Notes under the pieces: model-generated
The model's input: the letters and a program-made list of their open reading frames with translations, nothing else
The model's database searches: none
Told to the model about the DNA's origin: nothing
In this document: piece by piece, positions 39,389-47,755 of the stretch
Numbering within the stretch: position 1 is the stretch's first letter
Layout: each line of letters opens with the position of its first letter
Source of the DNA: Methanobrevibacter sp.
Lineage (GTDB): Archaea; Methanobacteriota; Methanobacteria; Methanobacteriales; Methanobacteriaceae
DNA length: 64,000 bases
Direction of reading: 5' to 3'
Assembly (NCBI RefSeq): GCF_030539665.1
Contig: NZ_JAUNXR010000004.1
Location: 1-64,000, forward strand
Program-made: the position numbers and the translations under genes

Positions 39389-40115
39389 TTTTATTCTATT
39401 TTTTCTATCTTTTTGTTTATTTTCAGATTTTTTCAAATAATCTTTACAATATTCTTGTTATATTTCTATTTTTTCTATCTTTATTCATTTTAAACGATTT
39501 ATCTATTTTTTTTGGTTTGACTAAATTAATTTCATTTTTTTTAGGAATGCTTAAAATTTATTTAATTTTTTCCACCAATAAAACGAATTTGTTTAATAAG
39601 TTCAATGAAATTTAATAATTTCTGACTTTTATCAACTTTTTTTTAATAATTTTGAATAATCTTCAGAAAATGTCTATTTTAACTAAATAAACCCAATTCA
39701 AACTTATTTTTGTTATTGGGGTAATATTTATATAGTTAATTAGATATATAAAGGTATAGATTGGTATTTTAAATTATGTTTATTATATTGATCTGTTTTT
39801 TTATATATTTCCCAGCTCGAATATAAGTCACTGTCAAAAATTAGTGTGTTTACAAGTTGCAATTTTATGGGCTATGTTTCTTGATAAATTCATGCGTTTT
39901 TTGTTTTAGCATAGCTAATCGAATCACAAATTTTTGATTTAAACAATATTCAAAAATAAAGATTGGAAATCTATTCTAATTTTGTCCAAAATTTTTTTAT
40001 AAATTTCTAATCGCCCAAAATTTTTGAATGAACCAAATTTAGAAACTGTCTTTGACCTTAAACGGTTAGGAACAACCCGATATTTTAATCAAAAGTTAAA
40101 ATAGGAGGTTGGAAA
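39389..40115 (+). other. 727-base AT-rich gap, long upstream region of mgtA
   Basis: No gene is visible. TCTATTTTTTCTATCTTT occurs twice (near 39395 and 39467). TATA-like sequences lie near 39726-39737, 39800-39810 and 39995-40005. Just before mgtA there is a small hairpin, CGGTT (40063-40067) with AACCC (40074-40078), then AGGAGG. No known Mg2+ riboswitch class is recognised, though a regulatory leader is plausible. Confidence 0.4.
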
Positions 40116-42878
40116 ATGAAATTAATGAAAAAAGAGGTTCAAACAAAAAAATCAAGCGAAAATGTTACAAGAAGGATGAGAGAAGATGAAAAAATTAATT
40201 ATGCTGCAACTCACGACGTTGGTGAGGTTCTTTCCAATTTAAACTCGGATTTAAACGGATTAGATACATTTGGAGTAGATGATAGTAGAGACAAATACGG
40301 CGACAATAAAATTTCCTATGGTGAGGAACAGTCCCTGATTAGCAAGATCGCCGATGCATTCATTAATCCGTTTACTTTAGTACTATTATTTTTAGCAGGA
40401 GTATCTGCATTAACAGACATGGTATTCCCATTTTTTGAACTGTTTGGAAATACCGTAGGTGATTTTGACTGTTTAACAGTAGTCATTATTGTTGTCATGG
40501 TATGCATCTCAGGTGGATTGCGTTTTATTCAAGAACAGAGAAGCGGAAATGCCACAGAAAAGCTATTGTCAATGATAACAACAATCTGTGATGTAATACG
40601 TAATGGAAAACAGGAAGAAATTGATCTTGATGATGTGGTAGTCGGAGATATTGTCAAATTGTCTGTAGGGGACATCATACCTGCAGACATGAGGATTTTG
40701 GAAGCTAAAGACTTATTTATCAGCCAATCATCTCTTACAGGGGAAAGCGAACCAATCGAAAAGGTAGCTACTGTTGACACCAAGCACGATGCGATAACAG
40801 AATACAACAACATTGCTTTTATGGGGAGCAATGTAATTTCAGGATCAGCTTATGGTGTTGTTGTGGCTGTAGGTGACAATACCCTATTCGGTAGCATGGC
40901 TGCTGAAGTAGGAAAGGAACATGTTGAAACAAGCTTTACAAAAGGAATAAACTCAGTGTCATGGGTTCTAATAAGATTCATGCTGATCATGGTCCCTGTT
41001 GTATTCTTCATAAACGGATTCACTAAAGGAGACTGGCTCCAGGCATTCTTGTTTGCAATTTCCATTGCAGTGGGTTTGACTCCTGAAATGCTTCCGATGA
41101 TAGTTACAACCTGCCTTGCAAAAGGTGCAGTTGCAATGAGTAAAAAGAAAACTATCATTAAAAATTTAAACTCAATTCAAAACTTCGGAGCTATCGACGT
41201 TTTATGTACAGATAAAACAGGCACATTGACTCAGGACAAGGTAATTCTGGAATATCATTTGGATGTTATGGGAAATGATGATGACCGCGTACTAAGGCAC
41301 GCTTATCTAAACAGCTATTTCCAAACAGGTTATAAAAATCTAATGGATAAGGCCATCATTGAAAAAACAGAAGAACAAGAAAATGAAAATCCAAAATTGC
41401 TAGATTTATCAGAAGCATATGTTAAAGTAGATGAAATTCCATTTGATTTTACACGTAGGAGATTGTCCACTGTAGTTAAGGACAAAAACGGCAAAACACA
41501 AATGGTTACAAAAGGTGCTGTTGAAGAGATGCTAGATATCTGTTCATCAGTTGAATATAATGGTAAAGTTGAAAAATTAACCGAAGATTTAAAAGAAAAA
41601 GTGTACAATCAAGTTAACAAACTCTCTGAAGAAGGATTCAGGGTAATTGCACTTGCACAAAAGAACAATCCGTCTCCTGTAGGGGAATTTTCTGTTGATG
41701 ATGAATGTGACATGATTCTAATGGGATATCTGGCTTTCTTAGATCCTCCTAAAGAATCAACAGAGGAAGCTATCAAAGCCTTAAAAGAATATGGCGTAGT
41801 TACCAAAATCCTAACAGGAGACAATGAAAAGGTTACAAGGACTATCTGTAAAAAAGTAGGTATGGAAGTCCGCAACATGGTTGTCGGAAGTGAGATTGAT
41901 GCTTTGACTGATGAGGAATTGGCTGAAATAGCTCAGGAAACTGATGTATTTGCTAAATTAACTCCTGATCAAAAATCAAGGGTTGTAACTGTTTTAAGAG
42001 AAGCAGGACATGTTGTCGGATACATGGGTGATGGAATAAATGATGCAACAGCAATGAAGGCATCAGACATTGGAATTTCTGTAGATACTGCAGTGGATGT
42101 TGCAAAGGAATCCGCTGACGTTATCTTGCTTGAAAAGGACTTGATGGTTTTGGAAGAAGGAATCATCGAAGGACGTAAAACATATGCAAACATGATTAAG
42201 TACATCAAAATGACTGCGTCCTCAAACTTCGGAAACATGTTTTCCGTATTGGCCGCATCTGCACTGCTTCCATTTTTACCAATGTTAAGCATTCAAATCA
42301 TTTTATTGAACTTAATCTACGACTTGTCATGTACTGCAATGCCATGGGACAATGTTGATAAAGAGTTCCTACAAATCCCTAGAAAATGGAATGCATCATC
42401 AATTGGCAAATTCATGATTTGGATTGGCCCTACAAGTTCGATATTTGACTTTACAACCTACATTTTCATGTATTTTGTATTCTGTCCGATATTCGTATCA
42501 AACGGTATTCTCTTTACAGATCTCCCAGCACATTTCTCAGGTGCAGAACTGGCCAGGGTATCAGCATTATACATTGCAATGTTCCAGGCAGGATGGTTTG
42601 TTGAATCAATGTGGAGTCAAACATTTGTTATCCATATGTTACGTACACCAAAACTTCCATTTATACAAAGTAGAGCATCCTTGCCGGTTACAGTATTGAC
42701 ATTTACCGGAATTATTGCATTGACACTCATTCCATTCACTCCATTTGGAGTAGCTTTAGGAATGACTGCATTGCCAATGTCTTACTTCATTTACCTGATA
42801 CCATGTATATTGCTGTACATGCTGCTAGCTACAAGCTTGAAGAAGGCATTCATACGCCATTACGGAGAACTATTATAG
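40116..42878 (+). CDS. mgtA: Magnesium-importing P-type ATPase
   Basis: This P3B-type ATPase imports Mg2+ across the membrane. The actuator motif [12 protein letters not shown], the phosphorylation motif [11 protein letters not shown] and the hinge [14 protein letters not shown] are intact. Ten hydrophobic helices fit the MgtA/MgtB fold, with the final helices after residue 690. The length of 920 residues is normal. AGGAGG lies seven bases before the ATG. A 55-residue membrane protein follows after twelve bases, so the two are co-transcribed. Confidence 0.93.
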
Positions 42879-42890
42879 GGAGGTAATAAA

Positions 42891-43058
42891 ATGGAATGGA
42901 ATAGTATTTGGTTAAGCCTTTTTGGAACAACAGATTATTTAGGATTTAACATGGGATTCTGGGTCTCCTTAGTTGTTGTTGCATTGGTGGTCGTTATAAT
43001 GAACGTAGTATTCTGGAACATGAAACCTTATAGTGAAACACAGTCAAAAGAAAATTAA
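42891..43058 (+). CDS. 55-residue single-helix membrane protein in the mgtA operon
   Basis: This small gene starts MEWNSIWLSL and ends ETQSKEN. GGGAGG lies eight bases before its ATG and it begins twelve bases after mgtA. Residues 21-45 form one hydrophobic helix; residues 1-18 look amphipathic and the C-terminus is polar. Bacterial MgtA transporters are controlled by tiny membrane proteins (MgtR, MgtS), so this may be an archaeal counterpart; no sequence similarity is claimed. Confidence 0.78.
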   Translation: MEWNSIWLSLFGTTDYLGFNMGFWVSLVVVALVVVIMNVVFWNMKPYSETQSKEN

Positions 43059-43267
43059 AAATGGTTTTTATCAACCATTTTTCCTCCATTTTTTTTATTT
43101 TTCCCTATTTTCATACCAATAAAAAATGTTTTGAGAGGAAGATAAATGATGTTGTCCTCCCTTTCGATATTTTGGGTTGTATTGGATATGATTATTCCAT
43201 ATTCTGATTTGTAGTTGCTTATGGCTTTTGATATCTGTTTTTTACTTTTTTTACTAATGAAAGACAT
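43055..43267 (-). pseudogene. Remnant resembling the C-terminus of an archaeal ATPase (DUF4143/DUF234-like)
   Basis: The 70-codon frame contains AISNYKSEYGIIISNTTQNI and NIIYLPLKTFFIG. This looks like the last strand-helix unit of the ATPases with a C-terminal PD-(D/E)XK-like domain (AAA_14/DUF4143). The ATPase and nuclease core are absent, so this is probably a gene fragment. It overlaps the end of the mgtA partner gene by four bases on the opposite strand. Confidence 0.4.
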
Positions 43268-45621: not shown

Positions 45622-46239
45622 ATGGATTTGCAAACATGTTTGAAATTATTGAGAGAAATAAAAGATGTGGCTTTTGCAACTGTTGATGAAAATAATCATC
45701 CTCAGGTTAGAATAATTGATGTAATGAATGTTGAAGATGATAAAATCTATTTTTTAACTGCCCAAGGTAAAGATTTTTACAATCAGCTAATCAATACCAA
45801 AAAGGTTGCAATTGTTGGTCTTACTAAAGATTATGAGTCAATCCGTGTTAATGGTAATGTTCATCTTTTAGATAATCAAAAAGAAGAAATAGATAAGATT
45901 TTTGAATTAAATCCTTCAATGAATGATGTTTATCCAGGTAACTCAAGGTATATTCTTCAAGCATTTTGTGTTTATGAGGGAGAAGTGGAATACTTCAATT
46001 TGGTTAAAGAACCTATTTTTAGAGAAAGCTTTTCGTTAAACAATTACAAAATAGCTGAAAAAGGATTTTTAATAACTGATGAGTGTTTAAAGTGCGGATT
46101 ATGTTATAAGAATTGCCCTCAAAAAGCAATCAAAGATAATCCATATAAAATCCAACAAGAACATTGTCTCCATTGTGGATTATGTTATTTTAACTGTCCA
46201 AATGAAGCTATTATGAGGATAGAAAATGATAATAACTGA
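45622..46239 (+). CDS. Flavin-binding (PNPOx-like) protein fused to a two-cluster ferredoxin
   Basis: Residues 1-130 are a split-barrel flavin domain (VAFATVDENNHPQVRIIDVM; FLTAQGKDFYNQL). Residues 145-205 are a ferredoxin with CLKCGLCYKNC and CLHCGLCYFNC motifs. Such fusions suggest electron transfer between ferredoxin clusters and FMN or F420. No ribosome-binding site is needed if the mRNA is leaderless. It overlaps the transporter gene by 14 bases. Confidence 0.88.
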   Translation: MDLQTCLKLLREIKDVAFATVDENNHPQVRIIDVMNVEDDKIYFLTAQGKDFYNQLINTKKVAIVGLTKDYESIRVNGNVHLLDNQKEEIDKIFELNPSMNDVYPGNSRYILQAFCVYEGEVEYFNLVKEPIFRESFSLNNYKIAEKGFLITDECLKCGLCYKNCPQKAIKDNPYKIQQEHCLHCGLCYFNCPNEAIMRIENDNN

Positions 46240-47755
46240 TGTATTTAATTTAATAAGCTCTCAAAGAGACTTTTTTATAAACTTAACAATTCAACATTTA
46301 CAGATTTCTTTAATTTCCATTGTATTGGCTATTATAATAGGATTGGGGTTAGGGATAGCTGTTGGAGAATATAAAAGGAATAAATGGATTTTAGTAGTTG
46401 TTAATTTGATTTATACAATTCCTTCCATCGCATTGTTTGGTTTTCTAATTCCAGTTACAGGTATTGGTGATGTTAGCGCAATCATAGCTTTAACAGTTTA
46501 TGCTTTGCTCCCGATGGTCAGAAATACATACACCGGAATTACAACAATTGATAAAAATATTTTGGAAGCTGCAGAAGGAATGGGTGCAACTAAATTTCAA
46601 ATTTTATACAAAATCAAACTTCCTTTAGCAATGCCTCATATAATATCAGCTATTAGAAACATGGTTATAATGACTGTTGCTCTTACAGGTATTGCAGCAT
46701 TTATTGGTGCTGGAGGACTTGGTGTTGCAATTTACAGAGGAATTACAACTAATAATATAGTTATGACAGTTGCAGGAAGTCTTTTGATAGCTATCCTAGC
46801 AATAGTTTTAGATCTTATTTTAGGCCAAATCGAAAAGATATTTGATTATAACAGGAAAATTAAAGTCAATAAAAAGTATTTATTGGCTGCACTTATTGTG
46901 ATTATTCTTTTAATTGGAGGCAGTCTTTATGCAAACTCTCAAAATGACACGATTCATGTTGCAACAAAGCCAATGACGGAACAGTATATTATGGGTTATA
47001 TGCTTAAGGAAGTGATTGAGGCAAATTCAGACTTAAAAGTTGATCTTTCTACAGGAATTGGTGGTGGAACAAGCAATATTCATCCGGGAATGCTTAAGGG
47101 AGATTTTGATATCTATCCGGAGTATACAGGAACCGGTTGGATGGAAGTTCTTAAAAAGGATGGGATTTATAACGAAGAACAGTTTAATACTCTTCAAAAA
47201 GATTATAATGAACAGTACAATATTACATGGGTTAATGATTACGGATTTGAAGACACCTACGGAATAGCTGTTACTGAAGAAGTGGCTGATAAGTATAATC
47301 TTAAAACATATTCTGATTTAGCTAGTGTATCTAATCAATTGACTTTTGGAGCAGAGTATGATTTCTTTGAAAGAGAGGATGGTTATGATGCTCTTAAAAA
47401 TGAGTATGGGATGAATTTTAAGTCAACTCAAGATATGGATATTGGTTTAAAATATGATGCTATTAAATCAGGGCAAGTAGATGTAATCAATATATTCACA
47501 ACAGATGGTAGATTAAGTGATTCAAATGTGGTTGTTTTAGAAGATGATAAGCAATTCTACCCATCATATGAGTGCTATAATATTGTAAGGATTGATGTGT
47601 TAAATGAACATCCGGAACTTAAAAATATTTTATTAAGTCTAAATAATACAATAACATCTGAAGATATGGCAAAAATGAATTATGAAGTAGAAGTAGAGAA
47701 AAAAGAGCCTCAAGATGTAGCTCACAAGTTTTTAGTAAGAAAAGGGATAATATGA
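46226..47755 (+). CDS. Betaine/choline-type ABC transporter: permease fused to binding protein
   Basis: Residues 1-215 are the OpuB/ProW-type permease (GMGATKFQILYKIKLPLAMP loop). Residues 240-509 are an OpuAC-type binding protein (ATKPMTEQYIMGYMLKEVIE; GDFDIYPEYTGTGW; DFFEREDGY), probably held outside the cell by a helix near residue 225. Family members import glycine betaine, choline or carnitine; substrate not resolved. It overlaps the ATPase gene by four bases. Confidence 0.9.
   Translation: MIITDVFNLISSQRDFFINLTIQHLQISLISIVLAIIIGLGLGIAVGEYKRNKWILVVVNLIYTIPSIALFGFLIPVTGIGDVSAIIALTVYALLPMVRNTYTGITTIDKNILEAAEGMGATKFQILYKIKLPLAMPHIISAIRNMVIMTVALTGIAAFIGAGGLGVAIYRGITTNNIVMTVAGSLLIAILAIVLDLILGQIEKIFDYNRKIKVNKKYLLAALIVIILLIGGSLYANSQNDTIHVATKPMTEQYIMGYMLKEVIEANSDLKVDLSTGIGGGTSNIHPGMLKGDFDIYPEYTGTGWMEVLKKDGIYNEEQFNTLQKDYNEQYNITWVNDYGFEDTYGIAVTEEVADKYNLKTYSDLASVSNQLTFGAEYDFFEREDGYDALKNEYGMNFKSTQDMDIGLKYDAIKSGQVDVINIFTTDGRLSDSNVVVLEDDKQFYPSYECYNIVRIDVLNEHPELKNILLSLNNTITSEDMAKMNYEVEVEKKEPQDVAHKFLVRKGII

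Follow-up and report, generated by a model that had tools for sequence, protein, structure and literature searches.

A candidate accessory subunit with one membrane span for a subclade of P3B Mg2+-ATPases, encoded just behind mgtA in gut bacteria and in a Methanobrevibacter genome

What is the short reading frame that directly follows the magnesium pump gene mgtA of a Methanobrevibacter sp., and does its product work with the pump? The window analyzed here comprises 64,000 nucleotides of contig NZ_JAUNXR010000004.1 (assembly GCF_030539665.1). An earlier note on this DNA proposed a single-helix membrane protein, co-transcribed with the Mg2+ ATPase, that might be an archaeal equivalent of the bacterial pump regulators MgtR and MgtS. 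Its first claims hold: the 55-residue reading frame at 42891-43058, 12 bases after mgtA, is real, as confirmed by its coordinates, ribosome-binding site and conservation, and the upstream gene encodes a P3B Mg2+ ATPase according to NCBIfam (Table 1).

Table 1. Positions of the mgtA and small-gene features in the window
Feature	Position	Strand	Basis or remark
AGGAGGT ribosome-binding site of mgtA	40103..40109	+	Read from sequence
mgtA, P3B magnesium-translocating P-type ATPase, 920 aa, bacterial type	40116..42878	+	NCBIfam
End of M7 and extended M7-M8 outer loop, MgtA residues ~793-818	42492..42569	+	Extension only in the small-gene clade
M10 and C-terminal end, MgtA residues 896-911; clade signatures P896, C897, L900, S907, A911	42801..42848	+	
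GGAGGT ribosome-binding site of the small gene	42879..42884	+	Within the 12-nt gap; 6 bases 5' of the ATG
Small gene, 55-aa membrane protein, proposed accessory subunit of MgtA	42891..43058	+	ATG start, TAA stop
Weak inverted repeat AAATGGTTTTTATCAACCATTTTT, -5.7 kcal/mol, then T-rich DNA; possible transcript end	43059..43105	+	

The pump matches NF011702 (1147 bits; cut-off, 975) and TIGR01524 (1111 bits; cut-off, 611) over the whole protein and thus scores above the curated cut-off in the P3B test TIGR01524/PRK15122. Its phosphorylation motif DKTGT and the Mg2+-coordinating Ser and Asp of M7 (SSIFD) are present and align with those of solved MgtA chains. It is the single MgtA of the archaeal genome at an E value of ≤1e-150 and is up to 74% identical to MgtA of Clostridia. 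No Rfam Mg2+ riboswitch or leader was matched 5' of mgtA. The unusually long (0.7 kb) and very AT-rich stretch at 39389-40115, between the gene for an archaeal RNA-binding protein and mgtA, likewise has no Rfam match and could contain a promoter or leader controlling the acquired pump. Elsewhere in the window, a glycine-betaine-type ABC transporter at 46226-47755 combines permease and substrate-binding domains in one protein (BPD_transp_1 plus OpuAC), and a 4Fe-4S ferredoxin domain is joined to a pyridoxamine-phosphate-oxidase-like domain at 45622-46239.

The ATG of the small gene lies 12 nt past the mgtA stop codon (42876-42878), and the inverted repeat behind the gene begins at the base immediately after the small-gene stop codon; a stricter terminator scan did not flag this repeat. 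No Pfam or NCBIfam family covers the small protein, its weak matches being chance ones to membrane segments. The small subunit family of sodium/substrate symporters (TIGR03647, DUF4212) was matched weakly by some homologues, below the curated cut-off (best E value, 0.003), and not at all by the window protein in NCBIfam at E≤0.1. V-ATPase subunit e, the sole match of a PDB profile search (E value, 0.05), was dismissed.

The small protein of the window carries the motif GFWxx...MNxVFWxMKP. Five residues (F11, F23, M37, N38 and W42) are invariant among it and the homologues described below, and the window protein has this conserved core together with one membrane helix. The description of the protein as single-helix stands for the membrane span but not for the protein overall: AlphaFold2 (three sequences; mean pLDDT, 71) predicts two helices, residues 3-16 and 21-43, and only helix 21-43 has the length and hydrophobicity that a membrane span requires. 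Lys and Arg residues total 51 on the C-terminal side and 15 on the N-terminal side of the small proteins, which suggests a topology with the N terminus outside and the C terminus inside.

The small gene is a real protein-coding gene under strong purifying selection. The earlier note had allowed that nonsynonymous change might prove to be as frequent as synonymous change, but pN was lower than pS in all 120 pairs formed by 15 bacterial homologues and the window gene (median pS, 0.74; median pN, 0.29), and the closest pair, of the Collinsella type, had a dN of 0.03 versus a dS of 0.60. Across the 16 aligned copies, differences at codon positions 1, 2 and 3 numbered 1966, 1166 and 3221, respectively.

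A scan of genome contigs gave the first two clear homologues, in an uncultured Eubacteriales bacterium (53% identity) and in Collinsella aerofaciens (63% identity); in both, the gene directly 5' is an mgtA whose product is 72% and 70% identical, respectively, to that of the window. Profile searches then found true cases in 5 of 291 genomes of the class and 9 of 299 of the family of the Eubacteriales genome, and in 2 of 149 genomes of the class and 3 of 45 of the genus of the Collinsella genome; one further homologue was met via its MgtA. With repeats across samples removed, 16 bacterial genomes remained, from the Clostridia sample and from Collinsella-type Coriobacteriia. In every one of them the homologue lies just 3' of mgtA, at a distance of 12 to 331 nt, and always behind the same MgtA subclade, which strengthens the idea of a small membrane protein working with the Mg2+ pump. 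A homologue away from mgtA was never seen in the survey, and a ribosome-binding site precedes the small gene in all 15 homologues inspected. These small proteins are a bacterial family that lacks a description in the open-licence literature, to which the search was confined. The small protein was absent from the plasmids and phages searched with tblastn, and both it and the pump were absent from viral contigs.

Pump and small protein should be transcribed together, judging from the arrangement of the genes. In the Collinsella-type pair and at three other loci (L083, L086 and L089), a strong terminator-like hairpin occurs within ~60 nt after the small gene, and the short gap between mgtA and the small gene has none, from which a shared transcript would follow. 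For the window, the 12-nt gap, the terminator-like element and the conserved arrangement argue for the same.

Many of the bacteria possess a longer cassette, in which a second P3B paralogue and then an OmpR-type DNA-binding protein (PF00486) come before mgtA and the small gene. At L032, L033, L084, L089 and their relatives, the paralogue 5' of mgtA is 33 to 46% identical to the window MgtA and the OmpR-type protein is an orphan in which a recognized receiver domain is absent; cassettes of this type may be Mg2+-response modules. The archaeon holds only the last two genes, mgtA and the small gene, and a single MgtA. Whatever function conserves the small protein therefore requires neither the regulator nor the second pump.

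How did the pair come to be in an archaeon? The suggestion of an archaeal equivalent of the bacterial regulators does not survive the survey: among 67 genomes of the genus and among 152 of the phylum, the small gene occurs in one only, the window's own, and the archaeon most likely acquired a bacterial pair. With the single protein as the query, archaeal relatives gave chance matches only (E>0.04); a match in genome G017 (E value, 6e-4) was rejected because its reading frame is broken by a stop. No MgtA with >61% identity to that of the window was found in 150 genomes of the class, and the mgtA genes that do occur there (≤61%) have no small gene behind them; the small gene is not an archaeal counterpart shared across Methanobacteriales. 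By the earlier note's own criterion, a partner protein would be refuted if relatives did not conserve the gene beside mgtA; that lack is literally what the archaea show, but distant bacterial homologues overturn the conclusion. In a related archaeon (L051), a long AAT trinucleotide repeat lies 3' of mgtA.

In maximum-likelihood trees the window MgtA is nested in a bacterial MgtA clade (SH-aLRT, 100), and the genes immediately 5' of mgtA, for ribosomal protein L15e and an archaeal-type RNA-binding protein, are archaeal. Contamination of the metagenome-assembled genome was rejected because these two genes stand just upstream on the same contig. Together, the bacterial placement of the pump and the archaeal flanking genes make it most likely that pump and small partner were acquired jointly from gut bacteria. 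This agrees with the many bacterial transporter genes taken up by the gut methanogens Methanosphaera and Methanobrevibacter (PMC3445992), although the text of that survey mentions neither magnesium, mgtA nor P-type pumps and does not describe co-transfer of a pump with a microprotein.

Is the small gene tied to a particular kind of pump? A first tree gave a perfect carrier clade, but it was the small gene itself that had led to those carriers, and 21 unbiased MgtAs from an MgtA search of the same family sample were therefore added. In this unbiased survey, the small gene accompanies 8 of 11 MgtAs within the clade and none of 10 outside it, and all carriers, the window included, fall in one MgtA clade (SH-aLRT, 100). 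The tree requires three changes, namely, one gain and two losses (one in G917 and one in G1073 with G977); presence at L060, where the contig ends at mgtA, was not judged. The small protein is useful but not indispensable, since three members of the clade live without the gene. At the G917 locus (L105), a leftover ribosome-binding site and ATG stand ~66 nt after mgtA, followed by a membrane protein reading frame that by eye resembles a spore maturation protein, an arrangement that would fit a deletion of the small gene.

The pumps of this clade carry marks of their own, which point to a candidate docking surface. First, the M7-M8 outer loop measures 46 residues between fixed motifs in all 15 carriers and all 3 secondary losers; it measures 35 to 38 residues in the 8 paralogues examined and in 22 MgtAs from outside the clade. 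Second, clade signature residues occupy 9 of 46 positions in M7 and the M7-M8 loop and 6 of 70 in M9-M10, versus 20 of 804 elsewhere; two control clades without the small gene have no signature concentration in M7 and its loop, and the paralogue clade has no signature excess there over its other membrane regions. Third, the sister losers G1073 and G977 have changed carrier-invariant sites at 5 of 47 and 7 of 47 positions in these regions, versus 8 of 358 and 10 of 358 elsewhere, i.e., ~5-fold more change (one-sided Fisher P values, 0.011 and 0.0014), where the regions were chosen after the signatures had been seen and the two losers count as one event. Carriers put through the same comparison gave ratios of 0 to 3.8. 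The loop extension and signatures could reflect co-evolution with the small gene or a coincidence of shared ancestry; the two are not separable here because there was a single origin and loop, signatures and small gene mark the same branch.

Partnership of the small protein with MgtA is well supported by this comparative evidence, and from it we infer that the two bind physically, where the small protein docks and which way it acts on the pump. On balance we favor, as somewhat probable, a small gene that encodes a dedicated one-span accessory subunit of this P3B subclade, docking on M7, M9 and M10 and the extended loop. Pump and subunit would be translated from one transcript. The subunit would consist of a single membrane helix preceded by an interfacial helix, the N terminus probably lying outside and the positively charged C terminus inside. 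It would most likely pack on the M7/M9/M10 face of MgtA, its Trp-rich N-terminal helix lying against the lengthened M7-M8 outer loop. There it could stabilize the pump or tune its Mg2+ affinity or turnover, a stabilizing or activating effect being likelier than an inhibiting one. It may also occupy a face on which MgtA is otherwise free to oligomerize, since M7 and M10 make the contacts of antiparallel oligomers in Lactococcus MgtA (PMC13174805). That only these two genes were transferred, leaving the bacterial regulator and second pump behind, and that they stayed together speaks for a subunit; the activity of Lactococcus MgtA without any such subunit speaks against one (PMC13174805). A bolder form of the proposal falls just short of being probable: an obligate-type P3B microprotein, comparable to a beta or gamma subunit, that co-evolved with the longer M7-M8 loop in one pump clade of gut bacteria, was transferred to the methanogen as a two-gene unit and works without FtsH-type proteolysis.

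The small protein might instead set the amount of MgtA by steering its proteolysis via FtsH rather than act as a standing subunit. Known small partners of MgtA and MgtB do work through proteolysis, which MgtR promotes and MgtS or MgtU prevents (PMC10710835, PMC10925321). The position of mgtR-type genes behind the pump gene also resembles the window locus, but the small protein lacks sequence similarity to MgtS or MgtR, a longer outer pump loop is not expected for a protease adaptor, and the gene was retained after transfer to the archaeon. Methanogens of this group are not known to possess FtsH. We therefore regard a role in proteolysis as doubtful.

It is less probable still that the protein is an inhibitory or gating peptide, lowering MgtA turnover when Mg2+ is sufficient. 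The models would be phospholamban or sarcolipin on SERCA and MgtR, which lowers the Vmax of Lactococcus MgtA: addition of MgtR reduced the maximal activity of the purified pump from 1.3 to 1.0 μmol/min/mg (PMC13174805), and many P-type pumps are inhibited by proteins with one membrane span (PMC10654040). A constitutive inhibitor on the same message as a scarcity-induced pump would, however, be a less natural design.

Neighborhood by itself is no proof of binding, and MgtS has a second target, PitA (PMC10710835), so that a real protein co-expressed with mgtA might act elsewhere, on another Mg2+ transporter or in membrane stress signaling. We consider this quite improbable for a gene never seen away from mgtA in the survey, limited to one MgtA clade and accompanied by nothing but the pump when it crossed between domains. 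That the reading frame arose by chance or is a noncoding element, as small size and the unmatched Pfam and NCBIfam families might suggest, is refuted by codon-level purifying selection, the ribosome-binding sites of the homologues and cross-domain conservation.

An accessory subunit would bear on a question left open in an MgtA structure paper, namely, whether small partners of many P-type pumps have been overlooked (PMC10925321). The family described here is concrete and widely distributed; its docking surface is predicted, natural losers can serve as controls, and MgtA structures have been solved. The case also suggests that archaea can acquire a bacterial membrane pump together with its microprotein partner as a single working unit, in which case their interaction is probably independent of a bacterial protease or regulator.

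Among known systems, the closest comparison is with MgtS, MgtR and MgtU, small proteins that control the stability of MgtA or MgtB in enterobacteria (PMC10710835, PMC10925321). MgtR of Salmonella (30 aa) and MgtU (28 aa) are likewise tiny proteins with one membrane span that are produced with, and act on, a P3B Mg2+ pump (PMC10710835). Members of the present family, however, exceed them in length, share a conserved N-terminal helix and the GFW...MNxVFWxMKP core, and go with a single pump clade whose outer loop is extended. MgtS of Escherichia coli (31 aa) is a small membrane protein that binds and stabilizes MgtA (PMC10925321); its gene sits away from mgtA, in contrast to the present gene directly behind the pump gene. 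In hhalign comparisons, similarity was negligible to both MgtR (probability, 2%; one aligned column) and MgtS (probability, 1%; six aligned columns). Kinship with either is thus absent at the sequence level: the alignments place the small protein apart from both, and any resemblance is one of function at most.

Further afield, KdpF of the KdpFABC K+ pump is a one-span subunit encoded in a P-type pump operon and reported to stabilize the complex (PMC10925321); KdpFABC differs in belonging to the P1A family and having additional subunits. The beta and gamma (FXYD) subunits of animal Na,K-ATPase, Cdc50 of the P4 flippases, and phospholamban and sarcolipin are also accessory membrane subunits of P-type pumps, although their sequences are unrelated and beta and Cdc50 have large outside domains that the 55-residue protein lacks. 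In P4A flippases, longer outer pump loops accompany the partner, and the partner-free Neo1p has short loops (PMC10654040); the extended M7-M8 loop of the small-gene clade follows the same pattern.
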